Assembly: GCA_006218065.1 (NCBI GenBank)
Contig: VBWE01000022.1
Location: 1-64,000 of the forward strand
Reading direction: 5' to 3'
Length of the DNA stretch: 64,000 nucleotides
Origin: Bacteroidota bacterium
GTDB taxonomy: Bacteria; Bacteroidota; Bacteroidia; Palsa-965
The position numbers and the translations under genes were made by a program. A model generated the notes under the pieces. The model was not told where the DNA came from and did no database searches. It was given only the letters and a program-made list of their open reading frames with translations. This document shows, piece after piece, positions 4,512-63,874 of this stretch (positions within the stretch are counted from its first letter, which is position 1; each line of letters starts with the position of its first letter).

Positions 4512-4547
4512 TTAGTAACCTGTTTTGCCTGTAGAATTCATTTGTGT

Positions 4548-5231: not shown

Positions 5232-5267
5232 GGGTTTCAATAAATCTGGCCAGGATGGAAAGCCTTT

Positions 5268-5275
5268 CAAATTTA
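5268..5275 (-). promoter_or_regulatory. -7 promoter box for the methyltransferase
   Basis: Reading the minus strand, TAAATTTG matches TAnnTTTG. It overlaps a potential TTG start, and the first good ATG is about 37 bases further on at 5231. This places the transcript start between the two and argues for the shorter protein. Confidence 0.5.
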
Positions 5276-5318
5276 CGAAAACCGTGGAGCAATAGCAACG
5301 AATCTTTTCAGCAAAAAC

Positions 5319-6767
5319 CTATCGCCTCGTTTTTTTCTTCGCTTTCTTTTTCACTGCAGTTTTTTTCGCTTTGGAAGCGGGCTTCGCTTTTTTGTTTTTA
5401 GGTGCGAGTTTCCGCTTTGCTTTGGCTGTTTTTTTGGCCGAAGTTTTTGATTTCTTCTTAACGGGCGCTTTCTTTTTTGATGCGGTTTTCGTTCCCGTCG
5501 GAGAAGAAGCAGGAGCGGTACCTGTTACGGAAGAGGAAGTACCGTCCGGCGTTACCGGTTTCACCGGGGCGCTCTGGCCGGCCAGCAACTGCGACAGGCT
5601 TTTGAAAAGTGCAGCGTTGTTCAGTACATAAAAAGTACCACCGCGGCCGTTCTGGCTGCTGTTGCATTTCTGGTTCGCGTAGGCGTAGCCGGGACAAAGT
5701 CCGCCCTGCTGGTTCATATCGCCGAAAACACAAACCGGTTTCGAACTGTCTTTGGATATGCCGATTTTGGCGTGGTTGTACCCGTCGCCGTCGCCTCCTT
5801 CCAGCCCGATCGTTGTGCCGGCCCAGTTGCCCGTGGTGGCGATTTCTACCGGGCCCGGTTTGCCGAGCGAAGCAGACCAGCAGGAAGGCATGCTTTTGCC
5901 GTCGGTGGAATAAATCTGCGGACTGGCCCACCAGCTGGCTACGCGCATGGGGAGGCTGTTCAGCTTCGCGGAAACCATTTGCCATACCGGCACATTCAGC
6001 GCGGAAGGTTTGGAGATCAGCTGCACCCCGGAAGAAAGCGTTACCATCGTAGCGGCAGTGGAACTGCTTTGTTTGCCGAGTTGATTCACTAACGCCTGGA
6101 TATCGGAAGGACCGCCGTTCTGCACAATTTCCGGCTGCGTGATATCGGTAACCACGCTGGAATTGATGAGCGCTTTGAGGATGGACGAAAGATCGCTTTT
6201 GTTGATTTTCAGCGCGAAAAAATGCTGCGCCACTTCGATATCGTCGTCGCTGCTCACGCACCCGAGCGTATTGCCGTCGTTCATGCGCGGGTTGACGCTG
6301 CTGGCCGAGCCCGGCCATGAAGGTGTGGAAACCTGCATCACGAATCCTTCGCCGGCATCGTTCCAGGCTACCATGCCTTTCGAATGTCCCCAGGGACTAC
6401 TCTGTGTAGCGATCGGGTTTCCGTAAAACTGGTCGTTCCAGAGCACGTAAAAATATCCGGGCGTATTGTACACCTGCCCGAAAGTCGCTCCCAGCGGGTC
6501 GTTGGGCGTGGCGCCCACGCAGCCTGTTCCTTTTACCAGCGCCGGGTTTTTACTGGTAGCAAAAACATATTGCTGGCTGTGGCCCGCAGGATAGGTTTGC
6601 ACGGTTCCGCCGAAAATTCCGGGCGTGCCGGGAGTCGGGTACACGCCGTTGTCGCAGCCCGGGAACGAAGCGCCGTTGAATTTGTAAACGAAAAGCCATT
6701 CAACGGGTTGATTTTTTCCCGCCATGGGTGATGGCGCGGGTAGTGCAGAACCGGTGCGGTTACTCAT
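5319..6767 (-). CDS. DNase II-family nuclease with Lys/Ala-rich histone-like tail
   Basis: This 482-residue protein follows the eukaryotic DNase II layout along its length. It has QPVEWLFVYKF near residue 20, a YVLWNDQ strand near 107, the first catalytic-type H-x-K as GHSKGMV (His128, Lys130), TPSWP, NTLGCVS, and a second H-x-K as NHAKIG (His332, Lys334). CVFGDMNQQGG follows, equivalent to the VGDMNR segment of mammalian DNase II. The family cuts DNA without metal ions, using the paired H-x-K motifs as in phospholipase D. From about residue 425 there is a tail made mostly of Lys, Ala and Pro, resembling histone H1 tails and likely to bind DNA. I see no signal peptide, so the location is unclear. 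Family assignment is from recalled motifs; the tail function is inference. Confidence 0.8.
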   Translation of the reverse strand: MSNRTGSALPAPSPMAGKNQPVEWLFVYKFNGASFPGCDNGVYPTPGTPGIFGGTVQTYPAGHSQQYVFATSKNPALVKGTGCVGATPNDPLGATFGQVYNTPGYFYVLWNDQFYGNPIATQSSPWGHSKGMVAWNDAGEGFVMQVSTPSWPGSASSVNPRMNDGNTLGCVSSDDDIEVAQHFFALKINKSDLSSILKALINSSVVTDITQPEIVQNGGPSDIQALVNQLGKQSSSTAATMVTLSSGVQLISKPSALNVPVWQMVSAKLNSLPMRVASWWASPQIYSTDGKSMPSCWSASLGKPGPVEIATTGNWAGTTIGLEGGDGDGYNHAKIGISKDSSKPVCVFGDMNQQGGLCPGYAYANQKCNSSQNGRGGTFYVLNNAALFKSLSQLLAGQSAPVKPVTPDGTSSSVTGTAPASSPTGTKTASKKKAPVKKKSKTSAKKTAKAKRKLAPKNKKAKPASKAKKTAVKKKAKKKTRR

Positions 6768-6841
6768 AAATTTCCTGGGTTGATTTTATGCGGTGGAATT
6801 GATTATTGATTTGCTTTTATTCCCGGGTACTCTTTGTAATT

Positions 6842-6895
6842 CTTTGTGCCTTCCTGTCTTCGTGGCAGAGACCACAAAGGCAGAAAGACACAAAG
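6842..6895. repeat. Dispersed CTTTGTG-type intergenic hairpin, divergent copy
   Basis: Two 24-base arms (6842-6865 and 6872-6895) pair with four mismatched positions around a six-base loop. The text (ctttgtgcctt, ttcgtgg, ccacaaagg) matches the repeat family seen nearly intact at 28665, 33228, 34645 and 40323. It lies between the haem-motif gene and the DNase II-like gene. Confidence 0.7.
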
Positions 6896-6926
6896 TCACA
6901 CGAAAATGATACAAGCGGATATCCGT

Positions 6927-8435
6927 TTATTTTCCTTTTGTAACCGTACTGTCCTTCTTCGGCAGAATGGCCTGCGATTTCACCGTGGCATGATGAAAGA
7001 GGAAACTGAAATCGGAATTGTACTTCGTTGCCGCTTTGGGTTTCTGGCCGGCGATAACAGCAAACTTGTGACAATTGATGCAGCTTGCATTGCCCTGGAT
7101 ATACGTTTCCATCGTGGTATTCGCCAGGAACTGCGGGGCATTCACCGTATCGAACGGGGGACCATCCACTTTGCCGCCCCATTGTGAACCGATGAGCCGG
7201 TAGTTTTCCCACACGGTTCCTTTCAGTTTGTCACGCCACACATCATTCACCAGTTCGGTGTAATAATAAACCGGGTACAGGCGAACAACCTGCGTGCCGA
7301 ACGATTTTCCGCCCTGCTCGCCCTGGACTGTGGTGGCGTAATCCTGCGCGTACGGAGGCGTGGGCGACCATTTCACCACTTTGTCGCCGGACTTGGGTGC
7401 AGGCGGCGTATTTACCGGGCAGCCGATGCAATTCGGATCGTAAAACGAGTATTCTTTCCTCGGCGGAGCAGTCTGATCTTTCTGCAGGTTATCCGGAACA
7501 TTGTCGATGTGCTCGAATGTACTCCACACCATAAACTGTCCGAACAACTGTTCCGTTTTGTGAATGATGTGCAGTCCCACCAGCCCGACTTCCGCCTCAA
7601 CAGTCAGCGGCTTTCCGTTGGTCGTGTACGCGGAATCGATGTAGATAATCGCGGGCTGGTGATAATAGGTTGCCATACTATCGGTGCCGCGTATAAGAAT
7701 ACGCCAGGATGCTTTGATTTCGATGGCGCCGGTGGTGTTGTTCTTTTTCGATCCCTGCGGAAGGCTGACCGTATGTCCGAGCGAGTCGATCCACTTTACC
7801 TGGCCCGCCTGCGTATTCAGGTTGTTTTTGTTGATGTATGTAAGCTCATCCGGGTTGATGCGTTCTTCAAAAACCGCGTAGTTCAGGTTTTTATCGATCA
7901 GCGCGTTGCCGTCCGATTCAACCAGCAGCGAAGGATTGTCGAATTTCAGGCTGTCGGCATTGCTGAATTTCGAAGTCATGTACAGGATTTTTTTGTTGGC
8001 TGCGGCGCCGCTGCGCACAGCGGGAGGAACGAATGAAACCGGTTTGGTAAAAACCGTATCCGGATCAGCGTAATGTTCCCAAACGCGCGGCGAAGTATAG
8101 TCTTTGGAAAAAGCGCCGGGTATCGGGTTCCCGTTCCCGTCAGCCGGCCAGTTCAGCGCAACGAAGGACTGCCAGGAAAAAATATCGAAATACGGCTGGC
8201 GCAGCGAATCGAAACCGGCGCGGTAACCTTCGTTGACAAGCGAATCGGGAATGGCGATGATTTTGGGAATCATGCTGCAGAATGAATCTTTTTTCGCGCT
8301 GTCGGGACAGAAACACATATCCTGGATATTCGGCGGAAGCGGCGGAGCAGGAGCAGGGCCGCATTTCTGAAAGATCATCGGTGCCGCGATCATGCCGATC
8401 AGCGCCAGCAGGGAGATGTATTGCCTGTTCATCAT
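6927..8435 (-). CDS. Putative c-type cytochrome-like lipoprotein, single CxxCH
   Basis: About 502 residues from the ATG at 8435. A TTG at 8453 would add six residues. The N-terminus is a hydrophobic signal ending IFQKCGPAP, a possible but imperfect lipobox, followed by a Pro-rich stretch. The region QPYFDIFSWQSFVALNWP near residue 90 and a single haem-binding-type CINCHK near residue 450 recur in a family of large bacterial proteins annotated only as cytochrome c family. One CxxCH suggests one covalent haem, but no distal Met ligand can be assigned with confidence. Many Cys in the first 60 residues may form disulfides. It is transcribed towards the DNase II-like gene with a repeat hairpin between. 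Function unknown. Confidence 0.65.
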   Translation of the reverse strand: MMNRQYISLLALIGMIAAPMIFQKCGPAPAPPLPPNIQDMCFCPDSAKKDSFCSMIPKIIAIPDSLVNEGYRAGFDSLRQPYFDIFSWQSFVALNWPADGNGNPIPGAFSKDYTSPRVWEHYADPDTVFTKPVSFVPPAVRSGAAANKKILYMTSKFSNADSLKFDNPSLLVESDGNALIDKNLNYAVFEERINPDELTYINKNNLNTQAGQVKWIDSLGHTVSLPQGSKKNNTTGAIEIKASWRILIRGTDSMATYYHQPAIIYIDSAYTTNGKPLTVEAEVGLVGLHIIHKTEQLFGQFMVWSTFEHIDNVPDNLQKDQTAPPRKEYSFYDPNCIGCPVNTPPAPKSGDKVVKWSPTPPYAQDYATTVQGEQGGKSFGTQVVRLYPVYYYTELVNDVWRDKLKGTVWENYRLIGSQWGGKVDGPPFDTVNAPQFLANTTMETYIQGNASCINCHKFAVIAGQKPKAATKYNSDFSFLFHHATVKSQAILPKKDSTVTKGK

Positions 8436-51166: not shown

Positions 51167-51264
51167 CTATGGTTTATGGTTATTCTTTTGCTCATCGTCG
51201 CAGGATTTGGTTTCCGGAGCCTGGTCTGCATCCGCGCGGGGCTTTCTTTTTCCTATTTTTGATC

Positions 51265-52665
51265 GTGCTAAGAATAAAAGCCCTGAACGAGGATACGATC
51301 ATCGCACTGGCTACCGCGCATGGAACGGCTGCGATTGCCGTTGTCCGGCTTTCCGGTCCGAAAGCCATCGCACTTACCGAGCAGGTTTTCCGCGACAGCA
51401 AAGGCGAAGCCAAAACGCTGCAGGATAAGCCCTCGCACACCATTCATTTCGGCCTGATCAACCAGGGCGATGTGATCCTGGACGAAGTACTCGTCAGTCT
51501 TTTTAAAAATCCGCATTCCTATACCGGCGAAGATGTGGTGGAAATATCCTGCCACGGATCGACGTATATCCAGCAGCAACTGCTGCAGCTCTTCACGCAT
51601 CTCGGTGCGCGGCTGGCCGAGCCGGGTGAATTTACGTTCCGCGCATTTATGAACGGAAAGCTCGACCTGAGCCAGGCGGAAGCGGTGGCAGACCTGATCT
51701 CGTCCAATTCGGCCACTTCGCAGCAGGTAGCCATCCGGCAAATGCGCGGCGGTTTTTCGAATTCGATCAAAGTGCTGCGCGAACACCTGGTCAACTTCGC
51801 TTCGCTGATCGAACTGGAGCTCGATTTTTCCGAGGAGGACGTGGAATTCGCCAACCGTGACGATCTGAAGAAACTCCTCTACTCCATCCAGGCCATCCTG
51901 CAGCGCCTGATCGATTCGTTCGAACTGGGAAACGTGATCAAGAACGGCATTCCCGTGGCTATCGTCGGAAAACCGAATGCCGGGAAAAGCACGCTGCTCA
52001 ATGCTTTGCTGGAAGAAGACCGCGCCATCGTCAGTGAAATTCCCGGCACCACGCGCGATACGATCGAGGACGAAATCACGATCGACGGCGTATTATTCCG
52101 TTTCATCGACACGGCCGGCATCCGCAGTACCAGCGATGCGATCGAGAGCATCGGCGTGAGCAAAACCTTCGAGAAAATAAAACAGAGTGCGATCGTACTG
52201 TATCTTTTCGACGTGCACGAATTCACGCAGCGCGCGCTGAATGAGGCGCTGGACGAACTCCTGCCGCAGATCGGCGATACGCAGATGCTGCTCGTGGGCA
52301 ATAAGATCGATACGGAAGACCTGAATTATATCCAGCAGGAATTCCAGGATTACGATGTACTTTATATTTCCGCCAAGCAGAAACTGTTTATCGACGATCT
52401 GAAAACCAAACTGCTCAGCCTGTTCGACAGCCGCGCGATCAACATCACCGAAACGGTGGTCACCAACGCGCGCCACGCCGAAGCCCTGCGCCATACCAAC
52501 GGCGCGATCAACAAAGTGCTTGACGGTCTGAACCAGGGACTCACCGGCGATTTGCTGGCGGCTGATATCCGGCTCGCATTGGTTTACCTCGGTGAAATCA
52601 CCGGGGAAATCACGAATGATGATTTGCTGAAGAATATTTTCGGGAAGTTTTGTATCGGAAAGTAA
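51265..52665 (+). CDS. mnmE: tRNA modification GTPase MnmE
   Basis: 466 residues from a GTG at 51265. The frame is open back to an ATG at 51169, but that start adds 32 residues with no family match and sits against the clpC terminator. A CTG at 51283 before NEDTII is the point where the family begins. The N-terminal folate-binding domain reads NEDTIIALATAHGTAAIAVVRLSGPKAI. The inserted G domain has G1 GKPNAGKST, EIPGTTRDTIEDE and G4 NKID. The protein ends KFCIGK, with the catalytic Cys of the family C-terminal motif. With MnmG it modifies the wobble uridine of several tRNAs. Its last codons and stop lie inside the attachment core of the downstream island, which leaves the gene intact. Confidence 0.93.
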   Translation: MLRIKALNEDTIIALATAHGTAAIAVVRLSGPKAIALTEQVFRDSKGEAKTLQDKPSHTIHFGLINQGDVILDEVLVSLFKNPHSYTGEDVVEISCHGSTYIQQQLLQLFTHLGARLAEPGEFTFRAFMNGKLDLSQAEAVADLISSNSATSQQVAIRQMRGGFSNSIKVLREHLVNFASLIELELDFSEEDVEFANRDDLKKLLYSIQAILQRLIDSFELGNVIKNGIPVAIVGKPNAGKSTLLNALLEEDRAIVSEIPGTTRDTIEDEITIDGVLFRFIDTAGIRSTSDAIESIGVSKTFEKIKQSAIVLYLFDVHEFTQRALNEALDELLPQIGDTQMLLVGNKIDTEDLNYIQQEFQDYDVLYISAKQKLFIDDLKTKLLSLFDSRAINITETVVTNARHAEALRHTNGAINKVLDGLNQGLTGDLLAADIRLALVYLGEITGEITNDDLLKNIFGKFCIGK

Positions 52666-52667
52666 CC
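52651..52667 (+). other. attL: 17-bp direct repeat at the 3' end of mnmE
   Basis: tgtatcggaaagtaacc encodes the last codons (C-I-G-K-stop) of mnmE and is repeated exactly at 63858-63874. It marks the left junction of the integrated element. The base pairs left of it (cgggaagttt) belong to the host gene. Confidence 0.88.
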
Positions 52668-52787
52668 AGCCCAAAGCAAACCACCAACAAACCTTTACCA
52701 ACCATTGAAAACAGCCTGTTTCAGGCAGTTTAATCCCTATTCCTGTTTATAGATATTTTGCTTTGATCGTTGGTTCTTTATCGAATA

Positions 52788-52838
52788 TTTGTACCTTCGT
52801 TGTACCTCGAACGGGTTGAAGGGTAGTTTTTGTACCTC
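52788..52838 (+). repeat. Left cluster of TTGTACC direct repeats (candidate integrase arm sites)
   Basis: TTTGTACCTT (52788-52797), TTGTACCTC (52800-52808) and TTGTACCTC (52830-52838) are direct repeats inside the left end. Two more copies, in the same orientation, lie inside the right end (63777-63796). Tyrosine integrases use such arm sites, but TACCTTCG also resembles a weak promoter -7 box, and the 234-base gap before the first gene must hold a promoter too. I see no other feature in it. Confidence 0.6.
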
Positions 52839-52900
52839 AACCCATTTTTTAGGCGAAATTATGGCACTTAAATACACTTAATGCTTCTTATTGCTACTAA

Positions 52901-53494
52901 ATGAGTTCTAATATCAAGGTACAAAGAATCTGCCAGCATTGCGGCCAGGAATTCACAGCACGAACAACCGTTACCCAATACTGCGGGGACAGTTGCGCCA
53001 AAAAAGCCTACAAAGCCAGGCAGCGTTCGGCAAAAATTTCAACGAGCAACGACGAAACCAAACGCTTTGTTTCCGGGCCGATTGAAATAATAAAGACTAA
53101 AGAGTTCCTGACCGTTCGTGACGTTGCCACACTTTTAAATTGCTCGCTCCGTACCGCTTACCGTTTGATCGAAACCGGAAACATAAACGCGGTGAACCTG
53201 GCACAAAGAAAAACACTGGTAAGACGTTCGGACATTGATAAACTGTTTGAACCCTCCCGCCCTGTTTCAACTGCTCCCGATACAGAAAGCATACCCGAAA
53301 CGGTTAACTATGAAACTGCCAACTGTTATACTATCAGCGAAGCCATAACGCGGTGCGGTATTTCAGAAAGTGCATTTAGAAGTCTGCTAAACCGGCACAA
53401 TATCCCGAAGTTCCAAAAAGGACGTTCCGTATATGTTCCCAAAACCATTATTGAAAGTTTATTAATTAATCTGCAAAGCACACAAGGCAAATGA
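52901..53494 (+). CDS. Zinc-finger/double-HTH DNA-binding protein of the element
   Basis: 197 residues. The N-terminus has a small Cys cluster (Cys11, Cys14, Cys28, Cys32: RICQHCGQEF...YCGDSCAKKAY), probably binding zinc. Two excisionase/MerR-like helix-turn-helix units follow: FLTVRDVATLLNCSLRTAYRLIETG (from about residue 67) and YTISEAITRCGISESAFRSLLNRH (from about residue 145). The stop overlaps the integrase start by four bases (ATGA), so the two are translationally coupled. This suggests a recombination directionality factor or an integrase regulator. Such pairs are frequent at the ends of Bacteroidota integrative elements. Confidence 0.78.
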   Translation: MSSNIKVQRICQHCGQEFTARTTVTQYCGDSCAKKAYKARQRSAKISTSNDETKRFVSGPIEIIKTKEFLTVRDVATLLNCSLRTAYRLIETGNINAVNLAQRKTLVRRSDIDKLFEPSRPVSTAPDTESIPETVNYETANCYTISEAITRCGISESAFRSLLNRHNIPKFQKGRSVYVPKTIIESLLINLQSTQGK

Positions 53495-54633
53495 CGATCA
53501 AAGTAAAACTAAGGCAAAAGGCTATTTCGGGTAGCAGAAAAAGTTTGTACCTGGACTTTTACCCTCCTATTCCGCACCCGGAAACGGGCGAACCAACCCG
53601 CCGGGAGTTTTTAGGTTTTTATATCCTGGAGAAACCCAAAAATCCTATTGATAAGCAGCACAACAAAGAAACGATGCAACTGGCAGAGCAGATCAGACAG
53701 AAACGTGAGAACCATATTAATAAGCCGGAAATATATACCGGTTATGAAAAGGAACAACTGAAAATAAAAGAGCGTGGCGAAACAAATTTTGTTGAATACT
53801 TTAAAGCATTAGCCGACAAGCGCAAAGCCTCTAACCACGATAATTGGATTTCGGCTTTTAGTTACCTGAAGAACTTTACCGGCGGCGTACTGAAATTTGC
53901 CGACCTCAACGAAAAGTTTTGTAACGATTTTAAAGAATACCTGCTGACCACCAAAAGCAACAAAAGCAGCAAAACAATCCTTTCGCAAAATTCGGCGGTT
54001 TCGTATTTCAATAAAGTAAAAGCAGCCCTGAAACAAGCGTATAAGGACGGGTATTTACCGGATGACCTCAACAAAAAAGTTGAACCGGTAAAGACCGCCG
54101 AAACACAACGCAATTTCCTAACTATTGAGGAGTTAAACCAGCTTATTAAAACCGATTGCCAAAACCTGTTATTGAAAAATGCAGCCTTGTTTTCTGCCCT
54201 TACCGGATTACGTTTTTCAGATATTCAAAAGCTGGTTTGGGGTGAAATTGAATTTATTAAAGGACAGGGATATTATATTAAATACACACAACAGAAAACC
54301 AAAGGCGTTGAAATGCTGCCTATATCGGAACAGGCATATACCCTGCTGGGGGAACGAAAAGCCGCAACCGATAACGTATTTGCGGGGCTGACCTATTCGG
54401 CCTATTCCAATAAACACCTGTACCAGTGGATTGGGGCAGCGGGGATTTCAAAAGATATAACCTTTCATTGTTTCCGGCACACGTTCGCCACGTTGCAACT
54501 AAGCAACGGTACGGATATTTACACTGTTTCAAAAATGCTGGGACACCGGGAACTGAAAACTACACAGGTTTACGCTAAAGTAATTGACCAGACCAAGCGG
54601 GCGGCAGCAGATAAAATAAAGTTAGAATTTTAG
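53491..54633 (+). CDS. Tyrosine-type site-specific integrase
   Basis: 380 residues. It has an N-terminal arm-binding-like region (KVKLRQKAISGSRKSLYLDF), a SAM-like core-binding domain (about residues 95-200) and a catalytic domain. The domain's conserved set is Arg241 (ALTGLRFSDIQ), a Lys in the KTKGVEML strand, His326 and Arg329 (HCFRHTFATL), His352 (MLGHRELKTTQVY) and the nucleophile Tyr361. All catalytic residues are present, so the enzyme should be active. It is presumably responsible for integration at the mnmE core site. It is coupled to the preceding HTH protein gene. Confidence 0.95.
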   Translation: MTIKVKLRQKAISGSRKSLYLDFYPPIPHPETGEPTRREFLGFYILEKPKNPIDKQHNKETMQLAEQIRQKRENHINKPEIYTGYEKEQLKIKERGETNFVEYFKALADKRKASNHDNWISAFSYLKNFTGGVLKFADLNEKFCNDFKEYLLTTKSNKSSKTILSQNSAVSYFNKVKAALKQAYKDGYLPDDLNKKVEPVKTAETQRNFLTIEELNQLIKTDCQNLLLKNAALFSALTGLRFSDIQKLVWGEIEFIKGQGYYIKYTQQKTKGVEMLPISEQAYTLLGERKAATDNVFAGLTYSAYSNKHLYQWIGAAGISKDITFHCFRHTFATLQLSNGTDIYTVSKMLGHRELKTTQVYAKVIDQTKRAAADKIKLEF

Positions 54634-54661
54634 AACAGAGATACTTCTATCCAACTTTTTT

Positions 54662-55678
54662 ATGACGGATAATATAGAATTACACCAGGAAAACATTTGG
54701 AGGTTTATTGATATATCAACCAGATGTTCTTTTAAATATTTTAAAGAAAACATTTCAAAGACTAATCCGTTTTCTCCACTACTTGCACCATTTGTTAATA
54801 ATGCAAGATTGTACTTTGAGCAGTTCAAACGTGAATTGGTTATACAATTATCAAAAGCAATAAACCCAGCCCCTATAGGCATAGATTTGCGCTCCCGGTT
54901 TTACCTAATGATTGACCGATACACAAATTGGTATAGTAAGAATATTGAAAATATTAACAGTTTAGGCCGCAACAATGTTTTTGAACTAATGCTGAATATT
55001 ATTGGTGATACAAAAGCAGAAATAGAAAAATATTTTCCTGAAAATACTTTATCCGAAAAAATATTCCCAATTAACATAAAGCAACAAAAAGAAGATTTAC
55101 AACAAATTTTCAGCGATGAGGAGAAACGCTATGCAAAAGACAAAAAACGAATTGTAGCAAAACTAAATACTATACTTGAACCAGAAAACAAAATCGCATT
55201 TCTAAAAAACGAACTGCGAGTATTTTATGAAGGATTGCAGCCTGTAACCACAGCAAGTTCGGGTGTTATACAACAGTTCCCCACGTTTCAAAATAAAAAA
55301 CTTTTTTTAGATCGTTTCATCGAAACTGAAATTCAGAAAATCGAAAACGGTGTAAATTCGTCTCCCGTTCAAAAGCCAGAACATTCACTTCGAGAGGTTG
55401 CATTATTTCTATTTTACAACGGCGAAAAGGTCGACAAAAAGAACGCCGATCAACTGGCAAAAAAATATAATCACAAATCTGGTCAGAAATTATATCAACT
55501 TTTTACTTTTTACTCCAGTAATAGTAACCGGATTCAGCCAGAGGAAACCAAAAAAAAAGCAGCAAACAAAATTGCTTTACTTAATAGGGTAATAACAATG
55601 CTTAACGGTGCTCCCCAAGCAAAGGCTAAAGACGAATTAAAAACAATGACCGCAAAGAATAAAGAGTATAGCCCATAA
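54662..55678 (+). CDS. Element-associated protein of unknown function
   Basis: 338 residues, AT-rich codon use, Lys/Asn/Ile-rich, soluble and mostly helical. The first 150 residues include ARLYFEQFKRELVIQLSKAI and FYLMIDRYTNWYSKNIENIN. The last 100 (SLREVALFLFYNGEKVDKKNADQLAKKYNH, GQKLYQLFTFYSS) are a region I have often seen in proteins next to integrases in Bacteroidota elements. No catalytic motif is visible. It starts 29 bases after the integrase stop and is followed by a long perfect palindrome. Confidence 0.6.
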   Translation: MTDNIELHQENIWRFIDISTRCSFKYFKENISKTNPFSPLLAPFVNNARLYFEQFKRELVIQLSKAINPAPIGIDLRSRFYLMIDRYTNWYSKNIENINSLGRNNVFELMLNIIGDTKAEIEKYFPENTLSEKIFPINIKQQKEDLQQIFSDEEKRYAKDKKRIVAKLNTILEPENKIAFLKNELRVFYEGLQPVTTASSGVIQQFPTFQNKKLFLDRFIETEIQKIENGVNSSPVQKPEHSLREVALFLFYNGEKVDKKNADQLAKKYNHKSGQKLYQLFTFYSSNSNRIQPEETKKKAANKIALLNRVITMLNGAPQAKAKDELKTMTAKNKEYSP

Positions 55679-55682
55679 AATA

Positions 55683-55704
55683 GTAACCGGTTATAACCGG
55701 TTAC
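55683..55704. repeat. 22-bp perfect palindrome between element genes
   Basis: gtaaccggtta is followed directly by its inverse complement taaccggttac, then ctctttttc. It could be a terminator for the integrase transcript or an operator for the HTH gene that begins 40 bases later. It shares GGTTAC with the attachment-site arms. Confidence 0.85.
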
Positions 55705-55743
55705 CTCTTTTTCGATGGACAAACATTTGTGAAAAAAAAACAG

Positions 55744-56088
55744 ATGAACAATCCATTTGAAAACATTGATGCTCGGTTGAGTAACATCGAAAACCTGCTA
55801 CTTGACCTGAAACACAAAGCCCCGCAAAGCACTAAAAATTCCGAAAATGAGGAGTTAATGACCGTTCAGGATGCAGCGGCGTTTTTAAAACTATCCGTTC
55901 CGACTATTTACGGGCTTACACAACGGGCAGAAATACCCGTTTGTAAGCGCGGTAAACGGCTATACTTCTCAAAACAGGAACTTAGCGACTGGATTAAGGC
56001 AGGACGAAAAAAAACGTTAATAGAGTTAGAGCAGGAAGCGGAAACATGGTCAAACCCCAACCGTAAGCGAAGTAACCTTAAAAAATGA
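55744..56088 (+). CDS. Excisionase-like helix-turn-helix protein
   Basis: 114 residues from the ATG at 55744; a GTG at 55729 would add five. The N-terminal helix MNNPFENIDARLSNIENLLL is typical of this Bacteroidota family. The HTH is MTVQDAAAFLKLSVPTIYGLTQRAEIPVCKRGKRLYFSKQELSDWI, a MerR/excisionase winged helix in two stretches. A Lys/Glu-rich tail follows. The stop overlaps the next start (ATGA). It is a good candidate for excision or replication control in the element. Confidence 0.82.
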   Translation: MNNPFENIDARLSNIENLLLDLKHKAPQSTKNSENEELMTVQDAAAFLKLSVPTIYGLTQRAEIPVCKRGKRLYFSKQELSDWIKAGRKKTLIELEQEAETWSNPNRKRSNLKK

Positions 56089-56936
56089 TCGACTTTATCA
56101 AAGGTCGCATCATTAGCAACCCTGCACTGGCAGAAACTTTAAGAAACGGTATATGTGAGCGCGTCGATATTAACCACAAGACCGCCGAAACAGATACCGC
56201 GATTTTTCGCGGTAAAATCGGCGATTTTGAAATACTTGTTTATTCGTCGAACTTAATTCGCGTGAAAGGCAGCATACACAAATACTATGAAGGAGGAACA
56301 AATAGTTCCGACTTTACTTACTCCATGTTTCTGAAAACAGTTAACCGGTTTTGCGGAGAACTGGGAATAAAGCCTATAGACTTTCTATTAGAAAACGTCG
56401 AATTTGGTGTAAATATCCTCCTGCCTTATTCGGCTAAAATCATTTTGGATAATGTTGTTTGCCTTAAAACAGGTTTGCCATTCAGCCACCAGCAGGGCGG
56501 TGGATTGTGTTTTAAACGAAAAGAATACAGGCATAAACTGTACGACAAATCCGCACAGTACCAGTTAACGGGTTTCCTCCTCCGCTACGAAATTCACGCA
56601 GACAAAATGCGTTTAATTACCCCGGTGAAAACATTACACGATTTGACAATACCGGAAGTTTGGACTATGTTTCAACAGGAATTATGCAGGTACTTTCAAG
56701 AAATTATCTTTACTGACACATACACTCCGGAAAAACTAAAAAAATGGAATAAGAAGTATTACAAGCAATACGCCGACAAAATCAATAATTCGCGTTTCTG
56801 GAAAGGCTTGGCAGGTATTGACCGTTACCGCCACCATCTACGTTTAAAACGATTACAACAACAGGGAACGCATAATTTCAGTATTGAGATCGTTAAGTTG
56901 ATAGAGAAAAAGGCAGTAGAACTAAAAAGCAGGTAA
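56085..56936 (+). CDS. Probable phage/plasmid replication initiator (gpII/CRI-like Rep)
   Basis: 283 residues. The visible pattern VKGSIHKYYEGGTNSSDFTYSMF, then LENVEFGVNILLPY, then YRHKLYDKSAQYQLTGFLLRYEIH resembles the filamentous-phage gpII and CRI-type replication proteins. In those, a conserved KxYDK and a following Tyr/Arg-rich strand form part of the Rep catalytic fold. A nicking Tyr cannot be assigned with certainty; several lie near KKYYKQYADK. The gene is coupled to the upstream HTH gene. If this is right, the element can replicate after excision. The family call is from memory of motifs and should be read as probable. Confidence 0.55.
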   Translation: MIDFIKGRIISNPALAETLRNGICERVDINHKTAETDTAIFRGKIGDFEILVYSSNLIRVKGSIHKYYEGGTNSSDFTYSMFLKTVNRFCGELGIKPIDFLLENVEFGVNILLPYSAKIILDNVVCLKTGLPFSHQQGGGLCFKRKEYRHKLYDKSAQYQLTGFLLRYEIHADKMRLITPVKTLHDLTIPEVWTMFQQELCRYFQEIIFTDTYTPEKLKKWNKKYYKQYADKINNSRFWKGLAGIDRYRHHLRLKRLQQQGTHNFSIEIVKLIEKKAVELKSR

Positions 56937-57014
56937 TATTTCCCCACTTCATATACTAAGTGAAAACATTACAAGGTTTTTCTATTATTCCTTAGAAATT
57001 TAGGTTTCCCAGCC

Positions 57015-57590
57015 ATGCCCCGACATTCTACCCTTCCCACGTTATTCGATGAATGTAAAACCGTTTCGATCAACGACCTCAAAAAATGGGGCTACCTGGT
57101 ACGGGGTAAAAACCCTGCGGGGGTTATCACCTGGAGGCGGCGCGGTGAAATTACAGCGCAGATCAGCATAGCGGTATTAATGGCAACCGCTGCTCCCTGT
57201 GTGGAGCTGGATTACAGGGTAAACGGAGAACCCCGCCAGATAACCGCAGAATTAACGGCTATACCCTCTAATTTAGGCCGGGGGCAGTTGTGGTACTTCA
57301 TCTGCCCGCACACCTCCAGGCGTTGCCGCAAACTGTACCTGGTTGACGGTTATTTCTATCACCGCTCTGCATTTAGGGGAGTGTTTTACAAACAGCAAAC
57401 ACTATCCGAAAAAAGCAGGGATTTGTATATTTTTTTTAGAGATACATGGTTGGCTGAAAACGGGTGCGACCAAGTGTACGAAAAGCATTTCCGCAAAAGC
57501 TATAAAGGAAAAATGACAAAACGTTACCGCCGGGTATTGCGGCAGATTAAACGGGGTGAAGATTTAAACAAGGAGGTATTATGTATGTAA
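57015..57590 (+). CDS. Element-associated protein with zinc-ribbon-like motif
   Basis: 191 residues. The core reads WYFICPHTSRRCRKLYLVDGYFYHRSAF, with CP...RC and nearby His residues that could bind zinc. I have met this phrase in short proteins of Bacteroidota mobile elements, but no function is assigned. The C-terminus is Arg/Lys-rich (KSYKGKMTKRYRRVLRQIKRG), fitting nucleic-acid binding. It follows the Rep-like gene after a 78-base AT-rich gap. That gap holds a small inverted cactt/aagtg pair but nothing clearly an origin. Confidence 0.55.
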   Translation: MPRHSTLPTLFDECKTVSINDLKKWGYLVRGKNPAGVITWRRRGEITAQISIAVLMATAAPCVELDYRVNGEPRQITAELTAIPSNLGRGQLWYFICPHTSRRCRKLYLVDGYFYHRSAFRGVFYKQQTLSEKSRDLYIFFRDTWLAENGCDQVYEKHFRKSYKGKMTKRYRRVLRQIKRGEDLNKEVLCM

Positions 57591-57599
57591 CATCTTCGA

Positions 57600-59039
57600 T
57601 TACCGGGACACGTATTGCACCCCCAGCGTCCTGCAAATAAACCATTCCTGGAACGGTATCAATTCCCCGCGTTCCGGGTTCCAGGCGGTTGCTCCCTGCT
57701 TTGCCCGCAGGTGTTCAATATGCGGCTGATGTTGCTGGTAAACGTGTTTAAAATCCAAATCAGAAACGATTACGGCCTGCATCAGATCAACGGCTAACTG
57801 TTCCCGCTCGTTCAGATGAACCGCAAGAGGGAATTTTTTATCCAGGGCAACCAGTTTCCGGATTATTGTTTTTTTCTCCTGCTTTGCTTCGCTTTCAATT
57901 ACCAGCATTTGCAGAAACAGCCGGGCAGCGGTTCCGAAGTGTTCACGGTCTGCGGTTCTCCAGTTAATGTTCTCCATTGCTTCCAAAGCATCCGCATACA
58001 TACCCTGCTGATAAAGTACGAGGGCTTTGATATAAAACGTTTTCCCGTTAGGTTGCAGCGTTAATGCTTCGGTAATGGCCGCGGATGCAGGAACAGGTTT
58101 ATTTTCTGCGAAATACGCGCAGGCTTCTACCTCCAGCAAAGCCCGGCGTTTTTCCGTCTGCTCGGCGTATAAGGGCAAACAGTGCTGTATTGTTTCAATC
58201 GTTTGCGGAAACCGCAGGAGGGCGAAATATAGCCCCGCTAATGCAAAGTAGGTTTCGCGTAGCTTGTTCCCGTCCTGCAAAGCCGGATGTTTTTCAATTA
58301 GCCGGATTTGTTTTTTCCTGCACTGCAAAACCTGTTCACGGTTCCCGCTTTTGGTTGCCGTGTGTGCTTCGGTTTCCAGCAGCAGAAACGCTGCCCGTGC
58401 CGATCCCTGTAAATGCTCCAGCGTTCGCAGGTCGGCTAAACGGCTTCGGGTTGTTTCCGGTTCATCCAACTGCGAAAGCAAATACAGTTCGTTGCACGTT
58501 ATTTCAAACTGCCACTGCCTTCGCGTTTGACGTAATTGATTTTCAAACCGCTGCTGCTGCTTCGGGGTAACCTGTGCCAGGTAGGTTAACGCTTGCAACT
58601 GTTCGGCGAAAAACTCAAACCGGGCAGCCTTTTCGCACGCCGCATACAGGCGGTATTCGGCAATGGCATACAGGCCACGTTCTAATAAAAATTCGGTTTG
58701 GTATAAACGGGTTCTTACTTCGGAAAGTGTTTTCCGGTGTTCGGAAAGTATTTCAATCCGTTTGGTATTTACGGGTAACGTTGCCGCCTGGATTACTTTA
58801 TCTTGCAACCGGATTACCAGCCGACTGAATGCAGCTACTTTGCGCCGACCATACAGCAGATATTCCAGGTCATGTTCTTTATAGGGTTGCGGTATGCTTA
58901 ACAGGTGCAGCAGTTTCAGGCTTTTGCTTTCAAACTTTTCGCCCCTGCTGTCAAAGGCTTTCAGGTAGTTTGTTACCAGGTGGAGTTCGTTACTGGTTAA
59001 CGTACTTACAAGCTGCTGGAGGCTTTTTATTCCGCTCAT
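57600..59039 (-). CDS. TPR-like protein of unknown function, antisense within the island
   Basis: 479 residues, the only island gene on the minus strand. It is helical throughout, with degenerate TPR-like pairs (RLYQTEFLLERGLYAIAEYRLYAACEKAARFEFF, KLRETYFALAGLYFALLRFPQTIETI). The N-terminus starts MSGIKSLQQLVSTLTSNELH. Similar lone helical proteins are common in Bacteroidota, but I know no function. Its codons are clearly GC-richer than those of its island neighbours, so it may be a later insertion or a cargo gene from another source. It has no signal peptide. Its own promoter must lie in the 284-base gap 59040-59323; CATCTTTG near 59075 on the minus strand is a near match to the consensus. 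Confidence 0.65.
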   Translation of the reverse strand: MSGIKSLQQLVSTLTSNELHLVTNYLKAFDSRGEKFESKSLKLLHLLSIPQPYKEHDLEYLLYGRRKVAAFSRLVIRLQDKVIQAATLPVNTKRIEILSEHRKTLSEVRTRLYQTEFLLERGLYAIAEYRLYAACEKAARFEFFAEQLQALTYLAQVTPKQQQRFENQLRQTRRQWQFEITCNELYLLSQLDEPETTRSRLADLRTLEHLQGSARAAFLLLETEAHTATKSGNREQVLQCRKKQIRLIEKHPALQDGNKLRETYFALAGLYFALLRFPQTIETIQHCLPLYAEQTEKRRALLEVEACAYFAENKPVPASAAITEALTLQPNGKTFYIKALVLYQQGMYADALEAMENINWRTADREHFGTAARLFLQMLVIESEAKQEKKTIIRKLVALDKKFPLAVHLNEREQLAVDLMQAVIVSDLDFKHVYQQHQPHIEHLRAKQGATAWNPERGELIPFQEWFICRTLGVQYVSR

Positions 59040-59310
59040 GGTTTTTTCGGTTTAGTGAAACCGCAAACACCACTTTCAAAGATGTTTTATTTTGGGTATT
59101 CCCTCCAAATGCAGGACGTTCAGATACACACACCCAACTGAAATACAAAACAATACAGCGGTATTAAAAACACCAGGCACACAAATAGCAGTATAGCAAA
59201 CGCTCCCCCGGTGCTGCCTGGTTAACGGGCGGTTGTGCCGTTTGCGTTATTTTACCGGACAACTGTTTAAAAATCCGGAGTTCGCTGTAAATTTCGCTTT
59301 CGGCTTTATC

Positions 59311-59318
59311 TATCTTTG
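59311..59318 (+). promoter_or_regulatory. -7 promoter box for the RadC-like gene
   Basis: TATCTTTG matches TAnnTTTG. Only five bases separate it from the ATG at 59324, so the mRNA should be leaderless or nearly so. No clear -33 TTTG is visible. Confidence 0.5.
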
Positions 59319-59323
59319 AACGT

Positions 59324-59938
59324 ATGAACGTAACACTGACAAAAACACAAAAAATATTAGTCCAAAGTTCCGGCGACATTGCCCGCATTATGCGGCAAAT
59401 ATTGCTCCGTGAAAACCGGATAAGCAGACAGCGCGAACACCTCTGGGCAGTTGGCCTGAACGCTGATTTCAGTATTCTGTATGTGGAATTAATTGCTTTC
59501 GGGATACCCGGCAAAGGCAAAATAAAGCCGATGGAAATTTACCGCCTGGCACTGCCAAAAGATGCAGCCTATATTTACCTGTGCCACAACCGGAAAACGG
59601 CTGACATGGCTGCACAGGCCGACGACAAGGCGTTAACCGACCGTATGATACAGGTAGGGAATATTGTAGGTATAACGTTTTTTGACCATGTAATAATTAA
59701 CGCAAAGACGGAAGACTATTTAAGTTTTCAGGACGTAGGGTTAATGGATGAACTGCGGAAAAGTACAGCCTGGGTTCCGAAGTTTGAGCAGATTAAGAAA
59801 ATTAGAGCAATGGCAAAACAAGAGGGAGAACTATCAAAAGCCCGCATCATTGCCAAAAACATGAAAAAGAAAAAACTGGATGTTGCGTTGATTTCGCAAC
59901 TGACAGGGTTAGCGGCTGATGAAATACGGAAACTCTAA
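59324..59938 (+). CDS. RadC-like JAB-domain protein with altered metal site and Rpn-like tail
   Basis: 204 residues. The RadC pattern is clear: REHLWAVGLNADFSILYVEL, MEIYRLALPKDAAYIYLCHNR, LTDRMIQVGNIVGITFFDHVIIN, YLSFQD. In active JAB proteins the motif is HxH-x7-SxxD. Here the spacing is kept, but it reads His88, Arg90, Gln98, Asp101, so one zinc ligand and the catalytic-site Ser are lost. The final 45 residues (KQEGELSKARIIAKNMKKKK, LDVALISQLTGLAADEIRKL) look like the C-terminal tail of Rpn/PD-(D/E)XK transposase-like nucleases. RadC-type proteins are frequent in mobile elements. This one is probably a binding protein rather than a protease. The gene is 39 bases upstream of the restriction-modification gene. 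Confidence 0.7.
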   Translation: MNVTLTKTQKILVQSSGDIARIMRQILLRENRISRQREHLWAVGLNADFSILYVELIAFGIPGKGKIKPMEIYRLALPKDAAYIYLCHNRKTADMAAQADDKALTDRMIQVGNIVGITFFDHVIINAKTEDYLSFQDVGLMDELRKSTAWVPKFEQIKKIRAMAKQEGELSKARIIAKNMKKKKLDVALISQLTGLAADEIRKL

Positions 59939-59977
59939 TAATACCTTTTATAGATCAGCAGAACGGAAATAGAATTT

Positions 59978-62917
59978 ATGATTACCAAAGAAACCGCCTA
60001 CAAAAAAATCGCTGAACTGGTTGAACGGTTTGAGGAGCAGTTTGCCTCTTACAAAAAATCGGAATACAACGAAACGTTAACCCGCCGTGATTTTATTGAT
60101 CCGTTTTTTAAAGCCCTGGGGTGGGATATTGACAACGAGCAGGGCTACGCCGAAGCATACCGCGAAGTAATACACGAGGACAGAATAAAAATAGGCGGGG
60201 CAACCAAAGCACCGGATTATTCCTTTCGGCTGGTTGGTGGTAAACGTTTGTTTTTTGTGGAGGCAAAAAAGCCCAGCGTTGCAGTAAAAGAGGAAATACA
60301 ACCGGCGTACCAGGTACGGCGTTATGGCTGGAGCGCAAAACTGCCGATAAGTATAATAACCGATTTTGAGGAGTTCGCAATTTACGACTGTACCAAAAAA
60401 CCAAAGCCGACCGATAAAGCTGCCGTTGCCCGGATTAAATACCTCACATTCCGCGAATACTTGCAGGAGTTTGAGTTTATCTGGAATACCTTTTCAAAAG
60501 AACGGGTTTTAAAAGGCAGCTTCGATACATTCGTACAAAGCGATACGCACAAAAAAGGAACGGCCACCGTTGACAAAGATTTTTTGCAATCGCTGGACAG
60601 TTGGAGAACACAGTTAGCGAAAGCAATAAGCAGCAGCAACAAAGACCTGGACGAGGACGAAATAAATTTTGCCGTTCAGCAGCTTATTGACCGGATTATA
60701 TTTTTACGCATTGCCGAAGATCGCAGCGTTGAGCCTTACGGCAATATGCAGGGCGCGTTAAAAAGCGGTGATTATTACCATAACCTGTTTGACCTGTTCC
60801 GCGAAGCCGACGAGAAATACAATTCCGGCCTGTTTGATTTCAAAAAAGATCAGATCAGCAAACACCTGAAAATTGATAACAAGATTATTAAAAACGTTAT
60901 CAATGAACTGTATTACCCGGAAAGCCCCTACGAATTTTCGGTTTTATCGGTTGAAATTCTGGGCAGTGCTTACGAACAATTCCTGGGCAAACAGATTAAA
61001 ATAGATAAGGCACACCATGTAAAAATTGAGGAGAAACCCGAAGTACGAAAAGCAGGAGGAGTTTATTATACTCCGCAATACGTAGTTGATTATATTGTTA
61101 AAAACACCGTTGGTAAACTGATTGAAGGCAAAACGCCAAAAGACATCAGCAAAATAAAAATAGTTGATCCATCCTGCGGCAGTGGCAGTTTTTTGATCGG
61201 GGCTTACCAGTATTTGTTAGACTGGCATAAAGACTATTACAGCAACAAGGGCAAACCCGTCAAAGGCAAAAAAGACAACCCGCTAACACCGGACGGCAAC
61301 CTGACCACCGGCGAAAAAAAGCGCATACTGCTGAATAATATTTTCGGCGTTGATATTGACGTTAACGCGGTGGAAGTTACCAAACTCTCGCTTCTGCTCA
61401 AATGTATGGAGGGCGAAACCAGTGCCTCAATAAACAACCAGCTAAAGTTTTTCAACGAACGGGTATTACCTACCCTGGACGAGAATATTAAAAGCGGAAA
61501 CAGCTTAATAGATACTGACTTTTACGAAACCCAACTGGATTTTGGAGAGGAGAAAAACATTAAACCGTTTAACTGGCAGAAAGGGTTTCCAACGGTATTT
61601 CAGGAAGGAGGGTTTAATATAATTTTAGGTAACCCTCCTTGGGGAGCAAATTTGAGTAATGATTCTATTATTTACTTAAAGAAAAAGCACCATTCTATTA
61701 TTGTTAGAATGATTGATTCCTATATGTATTTCATTAATCACTCAATAAACATTTTGAACAAAGAAGGTTATTTGGGCATGATTATACCAAGCACATTTCT
61801 TAATCAGGTTGACATGAAACTATTAAGAAAAAAAATAATCGAAACCAGTAACATAAATTCGGTAATTAATCTTGGTGAAAAAATATTTGGTTCAAAAGTC
61901 TTAAACACTTCAACTATTCTCATTTTTCAAAACACAAAAAAATCGGATAACAAAATATTGTTAGGTGATATTAGAAACATAAATCTTGAAGAGAAAGCAA
62001 AGCATTTAAACGAACTAAATGCTTCAAATAAAAAGGAATGGATAGATTTAGTTAAGACGGATGAACAAACAACTTTTTTTACCTTTAGTACATTAAACGT
62101 ATCACTTTTATCTAAGTTAAGATCGAAACATCCTAAGTTCAAAGACATTTTAGATGGTGAGGTACAAAGAGGGGTTAGCCCTGACTATGCAAAAGCTGTC
62201 ATACTAACAAAAGATGAAGCAAAAACAAAAAAAATAGAAACCTCAATACTCAAGCCTTTAGTATTAGGAAAGCATATCACAAGATACACTAAGCCCAATT
62301 CTGACGTATTACTCATTTACTTAACCTCAAAGGATGATTTAGAAAATTACACGAATGCAAAAAAGCACTTATTACAGTATAAAAAATTTATTACTTGTAG
62401 AGAAGTTGCCGAAGGAAAACATAAGTGGTATTCATTACATAGACCACGAAACCCCGACATTTTCAAGAAAAATAAATTCATTGGGCTTACTACAACCAAA
62501 AAACTTTGTTTGATATATGACGAATTTGGTTATTACACCACCGATGCGCTTTATGTTTTTAATGTAAAAAAAGGTGTTCATGAGAATAGTGTTTTAGCTG
62601 TTTTCAACTCTAAAGCATTTCAGTTTTTATATGAAACAGCAATTCAAGGAGGACAAAGGGTTATACCACAGGTAAAAGCTGCAAACCTTTATGAGTTGCC
62701 ATTTCCAAATGCTACCAAAAAAAATTTAGATTTAGAGAAATTAACAGAACAGCTTTTGGAATTAAATCAAAGGAATAAGGAAATAAAACTCGACAGCAAA
62801 CGGCAAGAAATAAAAAGTAAAATTGACTACTGCGAAAGCCGTATAAACGAGATCGTGTATCAGTTATACGAACTTACCCCGGATGAAATAAAGATCGTTG
62901 AGGAGGCCAGCAAATAA
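59978..62917 (+). CDS. Single-chain type IIG restriction-modification enzyme
   Basis: 979 residues combining three parts. At the N-terminus a PD-(D/E)XK nuclease shows Pro79-Asp80 and Glu95-Ala96-Lys97 (APDYSFRLVGGKRLFFVEAK). An N6-adenine methyltransferase follows, with SAM motif I VDPSCGSGSFLIGA near residue 395, KILLNNIFGVDIDVNAVEVTKLSL-type motif II text in two stretches, and motif IV NPPWGANLS near residue 552. The C-terminal half is a TaqI/Eco57I-type target-recognition region ending in a helical segment (LTEQLLELNQRNKEIKLDSK). One polypeptide thus cuts and methylates. Codon use becomes markedly AT-richer from about base 61600 on, within the recognition region, suggesting that part was exchanged. 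No partner S or R subunit is present. Confidence 0.9.
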   Translation: MITKETAYKKIAELVERFEEQFASYKKSEYNETLTRRDFIDPFFKALGWDIDNEQGYAEAYREVIHEDRIKIGGATKAPDYSFRLVGGKRLFFVEAKKPSVAVKEEIQPAYQVRRYGWSAKLPISIITDFEEFAIYDCTKKPKPTDKAAVARIKYLTFREYLQEFEFIWNTFSKERVLKGSFDTFVQSDTHKKGTATVDKDFLQSLDSWRTQLAKAISSSNKDLDEDEINFAVQQLIDRIIFLRIAEDRSVEPYGNMQGALKSGDYYHNLFDLFREADEKYNSGLFDFKKDQISKHLKIDNKIIKNVINELYYPESPYEFSVLSVEILGSAYEQFLGKQIKIDKAHHVKIEEKPEVRKAGGVYYTPQYVVDYIVKNTVGKLIEGKTPKDISKIKIVDPSCGSGSFLIGAYQYLLDWHKDYYSNKGKPVKGKKDNPLTPDGNLTTGEKKRILLNNIFGVDIDVNAVEVTKLSLLLKCMEGETSASINNQLKFFNERVLPTLDENIKSGNSLIDTDFYETQLDFGEEKNIKPFNWQKGFPTVFQEGGFNIILGNPPWGANLSNDSIIYLKKKHHSIIVRMIDSYMYFINHSINILNKEGYLGMIIPSTFLNQVDMKLLRKKIIETSNINSVINLGEKIFGSKVLNTSTILIFQNTKKSDNKILLGDIRNINLEEKAKHLNELNASNKKEWIDLVKTDEQTTFFTFSTLNVSLLSKLRSKHPKFKDILDGEVQRGVSPDYAKAVILTKDEAKTKKIETSILKPLVLGKHITRYTKPNSDVLLIYLTSKDDLENYTNAKKHLLQYKKFITCREVAEGKHKWYSLHRPRNPDIFKKNKFIGLTTTKKLCLIYDEFGYYTTDALYVFNVKKGVHENSVLAVFNSKAFQFLYETAIQGGQRVIPQVKAANLYELPFPNATKKNLDLEKLTEQLLELNQRNKEIKLDSKRQEIKSKIDYCESRINEIVYQLYELTPDEIKIVEEASK

Positions 62918-62949
62918 GCGGAGGGTAACCTATTTACAACAGTTAGAAA

Positions 62950-63732
62950 TTGAGCAACGATTTTAAAAACCCGTATGCCGAATTAGGCCGTGCTGATTCC
63001 GCTAATTATATTACTCCTGACGAGGCCGTTATATTGCGCGATGGAGGGCGTAAAGATTTTTACTGCCCGGATAGCGACTGCCGCGACCCTTACAGGAGGT
63101 TATCACTTGTTGAGCAGAAACATAAAAGACCATTTTTCAGACATTACCACGGCTACGATCACAACAGCAACCCGGAAACCCTGCTGCACAAATTAGCCGT
63201 TAAATGGTTTGCAGACAAAACAGCCTTTGAAATACCATCACACGAAAGCGAAGGTAAAGCACTAAAGCAGCAGACGGTTCAATTAGATGCGGCTAAAACC
63301 CGATTAGAGTACAACATTGCAAACACAATAAGGCCGGATGTTATGCTGCACACGGAAAGCGGTTTTACGTTCGCCGTTGAAATCGTTGTTACAAGTGACG
63401 TACACAGTGCCAAAGCGAAGAAAATAGAACTGTTCAATTTACCCACGTTGCGAATTGATTTTAGCCGCTTTTATCTGTACAACCGGGAACGATGCCAAAC
63501 AGATAAACAGTTTATCGAAAGCAGTTTAAACCGGTTGCTTGCTGATATAAACCTGAAAAGCTGGGTAAAGCCTCCCGCCTGGGATAAACTGCCCGCTGAA
63601 ATAGAGGTAATACAAATAACAGAACCGGCAAATGAACCCGCAACCACACACACACCACAAAATGAAAACACCGGCTGCTTTGTTATCCTGCCGCTTATTG
63701 GAGCAGGGTATTTGCTTTATACGCTGCTGTGA
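62950..63732 (+). CDS. CoiA-like putative nuclease with C-terminal membrane helix
   Basis: 260 residues, starting with a TTG (MSNDFKNPYAELGR); no ATG or GTG fits. The N-terminal part has a possible zinc site (Cys39, Cys44, His65, His67: FYCPDSDC...FFRHYHG). ETLLHKLAVKWFAD follows. Then comes a strand pair RPDVML (Asp130) and FAVEIVVTSD (Glu144), matching the PD-(D/E)XK-like core of CoiA-type proteins with the usual Lys replaced. The last 18 residues (CFVILPLIGAGYLLYTLL) form a membrane helix after a Pro/Thr linker. It starts 32 bases after the restriction-modification gene and is probably its partner in one transcript. CoiA itself acts in DNA uptake; membrane attachment is not usual for it. 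The nuclease call is inference. Confidence 0.6.
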   Translation: MSNDFKNPYAELGRADSANYITPDEAVILRDGGRKDFYCPDSDCRDPYRRLSLVEQKHKRPFFRHYHGYDHNSNPETLLHKLAVKWFADKTAFEIPSHESEGKALKQQTVQLDAAKTRLEYNIANTIRPDVMLHTESGFTFAVEIVVTSDVHSAKAKKIELFNLPTLRIDFSRFYLYNRERCQTDKQFIESSLNRLLADINLKSWVKPPAWDKLPAEIEVIQITEPANEPATTHTPQNENTGCFVILPLIGAGYLLYTLL

Positions 63733-63776
63733 TAAGCCCGGCAATAATCCGGCGAAGATGAAACACCGGCACAAAT

Positions 63777-63796
63777 CTGTACCTTATTTGTACCTT
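63777..63796 (+). repeat. Right pair of TTGTACC direct repeats (candidate arm sites)
   Basis: CTGTACCTT (63777-63785) and TTGTACCTT (63788-63796) repeat the motif of the left cluster in the same orientation, about 60-70 bases inside the right att core. The second copy also contains TACCTTTG, a perfect promoter -7 box, so a promoter reading rightwards is an alternative. Confidence 0.6.
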
Positions 63797-63847
63797 TGAA
63801 ACTACTGAAACGCTGAAAGCACCGCCAAATAAGGGAATAAAACCGGC

Positions 63848-63874
63848 GGTTACTTTCTGTATCGGAAAGTAACC
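63848..63874 (+). other. attR: tyrosine-recombinase core site with perfect inverted arms
   Basis: ggttactttc (63848-63857), spacer tgtatcg (63858-63864), gaaagtaacc (63865-63874). The arms are perfect inverse copies and the 7-bp spacer fits the overlap length of tyrosine recombinases. The spacer and right arm together are the 17-bp repeat shared with attL. The sequence after 63874 to the window end is host DNA with no identifiable gene in the 126 bases seen. Confidence 0.88.

Follow-up and report, generated by a model that had tools for sequence, protein, structure and literature searches.

The question raised by the last part of a 64,000-nucleotide stretch of contig VBWE01000022.1 (the window), from a Bacteroidota bacterium of the Palsa-965 lineage, is what kind of mobile element lies downstream of mnmE and by what means it moves. 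A preliminary description, made from the letters alone, had placed a satellite-like defence element here, with two helix-turn-helix (HTH) proteins, a tyrosine integrase, a Rep-like protein at 56085-56936 and defence cargo, but no structural or transfer genes. All of the named genes are present, the two HTH proteins being excisionase-like (TIGR01764, 46.6 and 34.5 bits with a cut-off of 28.8). No capsid, portal, other structural, terminase or relaxase family was found among the window proteins, nor any packaging or capsid-remodelling gene of the element's own, such as the terminase small subunit (TerS) present in relatives (Pfam, PHROGs, NCBIfam and PADLOC). The island thus combines an integrase, regulators and a replication module but does not have a full set of virion genes, and on balance we favor its being an excisable, replicating and probably helper-dependent element of the phage satellite type, with defence cargo.

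Ends of the island and its excision

The mobile island spans 52651-63874 (11.2 kb), with a 17-bp direct att repeat at each end (Table 1). Since these repeats are the real ends, the left limit of the element lies within the 3' end of mnmE and the right limit about 140 bp past the range of 52901-63732 first assigned to it; the element proposed is thus real, although its limits were drawn too narrowly. The integration site is the mnmE 3' end, and by sequence the gene is left intact by the insertion. Within the window the repeat TGTACCTTNNTTGTACCT is present in exactly two copies, one inside each end (52790 and 63778), where none would be expected, and the same motif is found at the ends of a sister element in G004, a genome of another genus of the same family, as well as in the attP sites of two circular contigs, L231 and L236. 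The att cores and inner repeats together have the sequence anatomy of tyrosine-recombinase attL and attR sites, with the inner repeats as putative arm sites, and the integrase has a full catalytic domain as judged by family match. Most of the 11.2 kb between the att copies has an AT content above that of the surroundings. The DNA downstream of mnmE is strongly divergent between relatives.

Joining the inner sides of the window attR and attL yields a predicted attP that aligns over its whole length with the attP of L231, with a score of 198 as compared to at most 35 for shuffled sequences. L231, a circular metagenomic contig of 6.7 kb, encodes an integrase with 81% identity to that of the window, and its variable gene (between integrase and HTH2) continues in frame from one contig end to the other. 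The attP of L236 (7.2 kb, 114-bp end repeat) includes a run identical to the 26 nt around the window attR. Two further relatives are circular: L232 (12.2 kb, 123-bp end repeat) and L089 (4601 bp, 53-bp end repeat), the latter carrying only the integrase, variable gene, HTH2, S140 and Rep, and a single tRNA-Asp-like core that matches at 19 of 24 bases (at most 16 in shuffles). The circular form with the predicted attP was seen for the close relatives L231 and L236, not for the host strain. Evidence of excision, on which the preliminary description had made its proposal depend, is thus provided by the att repeats and the circular relatives, and at the sequence level both integration at mnmE and a capacity to excise are well supported.

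A different outcome would be that a once-mobile island has become a fixed defence island, its mobility functions perhaps intact by sequence and no longer used. Decay of this kind is seen at mnmE of G004 (L054, 7900-11180, minus strand), where the gene is followed by a type IIG restriction gene, a fragment of U260 (Table 1) and a sequence resembling the right end; these are apparently what is left of an element like that of the window after loss of integrase and Rep. Moreover, the host assembly holds a single copy of the element, and no second one was found there. In the window, however, no damage is seen in the main open reading frames (ORFs), in either att core or in either arm repeat, and near relatives occur as circles, such that we regard a fixed island as rather improbable.

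A predicted rolling-circle initiator and its family

The Rep protein of the window has no Pfam or PHROG family match, no sequence match in the PDB with a Rep profile, and no direct profile match to PF02486 or PF05144. A structural model from an alignment of 76 relatives (pLDDT 92, pTM 0.88) has as its nearest solved fold RepDE, with a crescent-shaped catalytic fold (Z 12.3, rmsd 3.8, 226 aligned), followed by Geobacillus RepSTK1 (Z 11.1, rmsd 4.4, 210 aligned); all others are at Z 6.7 or below, and the best viral structural match is inovirus G2P. Matches to TATA-binding-protein folds (Z at most 6.7) were set aside as reflecting a common beta-sheet arrangement. The invariant or nearly invariant residues are D3, E106, K151, Y153, K155, Q158, R167 and E169; arranged as K151-x-Y153-x-K155-x-x-Q158 and R167-x-E169 together with E106 and D3, they have the spacing of RepDE R189/Y191/K193/E196, R212/E214, D142 and D46, the residues being paired by motif spacing and not by superposition. 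The catalytic layout of RepDE comprises a nucleophile, basic neighbours and three metal-binding acids (PMC4797284). One relative (L230) matches both PF05144 (Phage_CRI) and the window Rep family (hhalign probability 96.4). The replication-initiator fold that had been proposed is thus borne out by structure prediction, and the assignment of Rep as a rolling-circle initiator by fold and catalytic residues, with a presumed nicking activity, is supported in silico. Rep resembles pT181 RepD/RepDE and inovirus G2P in fold and in the pattern of catalytic residues, although identity is only about 11% and the window protein lacks a Pfam match.

Homologs of Rep are present in 32 of 395 Bacteroidia genomes (about 8%), and a species-level collection yielded 110 confirmed Rep loci, the homologs there being recovered with an alignment of the tighter clade A2; scans of genome contigs and viral contigs with the single protein gave no match. 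The gene order is conserved in other genomes, as the preliminary description had supposed: integrase, variable gene, excisionase-like HTH2 and Rep follow one another in one direction in 55 of the 59 loci across Bacteroidota that have enough upstream DNA. An exact direct repeat of at least 16 bp flanks 39 of 76 family loci and none of 76 controls placed upstream, and coincides in many loci with the 3' end of a tRNA or tmRNA gene, and elsewhere with that of mnmE. The att-bounded islands are 4.9-11.8 kb long, with a median of 7.0 kb. Two of the loci lie in metagenome-assembled genomes labelled 'Candidatus Dependentiae' (L089) and 'Lokiarchaeota' (L156), almost certainly binning errors.

The smallest relatives, of about 5 kb, contain little beyond integrase, variable gene, HTH2, (S140) and Rep, as might be expected of an autonomous, integrating plasmid-like replicon spread by general transduction or transformation with no dedicated helper. 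The family is nearly absent from plasmid records, however, with no match to the window Rep among 72,556 and one to the Rep of a relative, and we consider such a replicon very improbable. Among phages, the window Rep has a single match, to an unannotated 28-kb fragment.

Phage satellite or mobilizable element

Several relatives carry phage genes. A TerS gene is positioned just after Rep in five loci (PF03592 in L106, L139, L150, from Pedobacter fastidiosus, and L154; PF05119 in L082), and every PF03592-type match in the loci scanned fell in this post-Rep slot. L106 also has a tape-measure gene, as well as HTH1 and an integrase that shares 69% identity with that of the window, and baseplate-hub genes are located after Rep in L110 and L165. 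The circular L232 (IMGVR_UViG_3300009082_000109) contains tape-measure, head-protease and major-head genes at 4231-8419, with HTH1 and an integrase 50% identical to that of the window; we found in it no ORF fitting a portal or, by size and leaving the integrase and tape measure apart, a large terminase, and it is possibly a capsid-forming satellite. In L053 (12832-19483), U191 is accompanied by a tape-measure-like protein and a GHKL-ATPase-like gene, the latter two named by eye only. Because relatives occur free as circles, and sometimes with phage-packaging genes, the window island probably spreads by hijacking phages, and a phage is its likely helper.

How such an element would operate can be outlined from these observations. 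The integrase would recombine attP with the mnmE 3' end such that the gene stays intact, and the HTH proteins may control excision. On induction the island would leave as a circle, as suggested by the attP circles of close relatives, and the Rep_trans-type initiator, judging from its in silico fold and active site, would nick this circle and start rolling-circle replication. A tailed helper phage could then package the DNA, in view of the TerS, tail and capsid genes of relatives, and the type IIG enzyme and its neighbours may guard host and element against other phages.

Several observations weigh against the satellite reading. No packaging, capsid or tail gene can be recognised in the window element, and most relatives also lack them. 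The mnmE-type circles L231 and L236 have RepA/primase modules instead of the window type of Rep, and they therefore show excision by the window type of integrase but not replication by the window Rep. Membership of circles in IMG/VR is no proof of their presence in particles, and a helper phage, induction, a rise in copy number and packaged DNA have not been observed. Finally, Rep_trans proteins double as conjugative relaxases (PMC5704250).

This last point raises the alternative of an integrative and mobilizable element (IME), in which Rep would be both initiator and relaxase and the island would move via a co-resident conjugative system. The relation of the Rep fold to Rep_trans is compatible with a non-canonical, Rep-type relaxase; in Firmicutes, MobT relaxases also initiate rolling-circle replication, and the 3' end of trmE is likewise the integration site of SGI1 and MGIVchHai6 (PMC5704250). 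Nonetheless, a search for relaxases of one MOB family, PF03432, found none next to the Rep loci, and such a gene is present in only 9 of the 31 carrier genomes; relatives, for their part, hold TerS, tail and capsid genes rather than transfer genes. We therefore reject a canonical MobP mobilizable element and think a mobilizable element in general unlikely, if less so than a fixed island.

Among described elements, phage-inducible chromosomal islands (PICIs) and capsid-forming PICIs (cfPICIs) share with the island an integrase, regulators, a replication module, defence cargo, a size of 5-12 kb and integration at a gene 3' end, and the likeness extends in relatives to stand-alone TerS genes in some and to capsid and protease genes in one circular relative. 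The window branch differs in belonging to Bacteroidota, in having a rolling-circle initiator instead of a primase or replisome organiser, and in lacking a TerS or capsid gene in the window member. Because it has no packaging gene we do not file the element as a PICI, although we suggest that it works like one; the satellite parallel drawn in the preliminary description is thus supported in part, by the relatives with stand-alone TerS, tail or capsid genes. SGI1 and MGIVchHai6, which are IMEs, likewise have a tyrosine integrase acting at the 3' end of the same gene (PMC5704250), but are from another phylum and have Rep_3, whereas the window has a Rep_trans-like initiator and no mobilization gene was found in it. 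Streptococcal IMEs and ICEBs1/Tn916 (MobT/Rep_trans) are also integrated and have a Rep_trans-type protein that may replicate the excised circle; the window Rep family is distinct in sequence, and there is no PF02486 match in 247 genomes of the class. Bacteroides NBU1/NBU2, Tn4555 and Tn4399 are IMEs and likewise integrated in Bacteroidota, but encode MobP relaxases (PMC5704250), none of which was found in the window element.

A 2024 review of satellites lists P4-like elements, PICI, cfPICI, PLE, PICMI and a few marine or soil lineages, none assigned to Bacteroidota (PMC11389934). In line with the preliminary description, no well-described Bacteroidota satellite family of this layout emerged from a full-text literature search, most subscription literature being outside its reach; the family is large and apparently undescribed in Bacteroidota. 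We consider it an evenly balanced proposition that the island belongs to a Bacteroidota-wide superfamily of phage satellites with a shared integrase/variable gene/HTH module, a swappable replication module (rolling-circle Rep, RepA/primase or O/DnaC-like) and a post-replication slot for TerS, tail, capsid or defence genes, with one lineage dedicated to mnmE. If these readings are correct, a phylum of central importance in gut and aquatic ecosystems would gain a major satellite lineage that is open to experiment, mnmE would be a defence-island hotspot in Bacteroidota, and a rolling-circle initiator would be linked to the biology of satellites.

Other genes of the island and the mnmE hotspot

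Table 1. Positions in the window of the island's genes and sites and of its target gene.
Feature	Position	Strand	Remarks
mnmE/trmE, target gene	51169..52665	+	C-terminus FGKFCIGK; flanks 19/20 best HTH1 homologs
attL core TGTATCGGAAAGTAACC	52651..52667	+	last codons and stop of mnmE
Left integrase arm-type repeat TGTACCTTCGTTGTACCT	52790..52807	+	putative role
HTH1, zinc-finger-like N-terminus and excisionase-family HTH	52901..53494	+	in relatives directly 3' of mnmE
Tyrosine integrase	53491..54633	+	Arm-DNA-bind_5, Phage_int_SAM_5, Phage_integrase
Variable gene, 338 aa, between integrase and HTH2	54662..55678	+	slot position conserved
HTH2, excisionase/MerR-like HTH	55729..56088	+	between integrase and Rep in 55/59 loci
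Rep, predicted rolling-circle replication initiator, Rep_trans/Phage_CRI superfamily	56085..56936	+	
U191, conserved backbone protein after Rep	57015..57590	+	no known family
TPR protein	57600..59039	-	sister element: same place, same strand
RadC-like JAB protein	59324..59938	+	80% identical in sister element
Type IIG restriction-methylase (Eco57I type), defence cargo	59978..62917	+	PADLOC 8.7e-194
U260	62950..63732	+	no family match; fragment also follows IIG gene in G004
Right integrase arm-type repeat TGTACCTTATTTGTACCT	63778..63795	+	
attR core TGTATCGGAAAGTAACC	63858..63874	+	second copy of mnmE 3' end

The 'nucleases' of the preliminary description reduce to one: the type IIG gene is assigned by family, but RadC-JAB has no demonstrated nuclease activity and 62950-63732 has no family match. 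The IIG protein is 61% identical to that encoded beside mnmE in G004. HTH1 is a candidate directionality factor or regulator. U191 is present in 21 of 395 genomes of the class and follows Rep in L065, L132, L158 and L225; phage records and viral contigs gave no match to it. It has a CP-T-RC-KLYL motif, and restriction genes or Rep often adjoin it.

The sister element in G004 has a backbone that matches that of the window (integrase, an intervening gene, HTH2, Rep, U191, TPR and RadC), but it has a different restriction gene and lies at another site, between 25-bp repeats. Its RadC-JAB protein is 80% identical to that of the window (59324-59938 versus L065 12885-13499), whereas identity is only 39-60% for integrase, HTH2, Rep, U191 and TPR; the former value indicates either unusually strong constraint or recent exchange.

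HTH1 homologs are found in 46 of 395 genomes (about 12%) as part of an mnmE-specific integration module, and 19 of the 20 best lie immediately downstream of mnmE, almost always accompanied by an integrase. Several mnmE islands have RepA/primase-like genes in place of Rep and restriction systems as cargo, and across Bacteroidia the 3' end of mnmE serves as a hotspot of integration. In L187-L206, L207-L213 and L226, a dedicated pair of HTH1 and integrase sits there, together with replication modules of various kinds and, in many cases, cargo of the restriction type. A stretch in G006 (L057, 1-6445), the genes of which do not include an integrase, separates the intact mnmE from a further 3' fragment of the gene some 6 kb away, and appears to be another occupant of the site.
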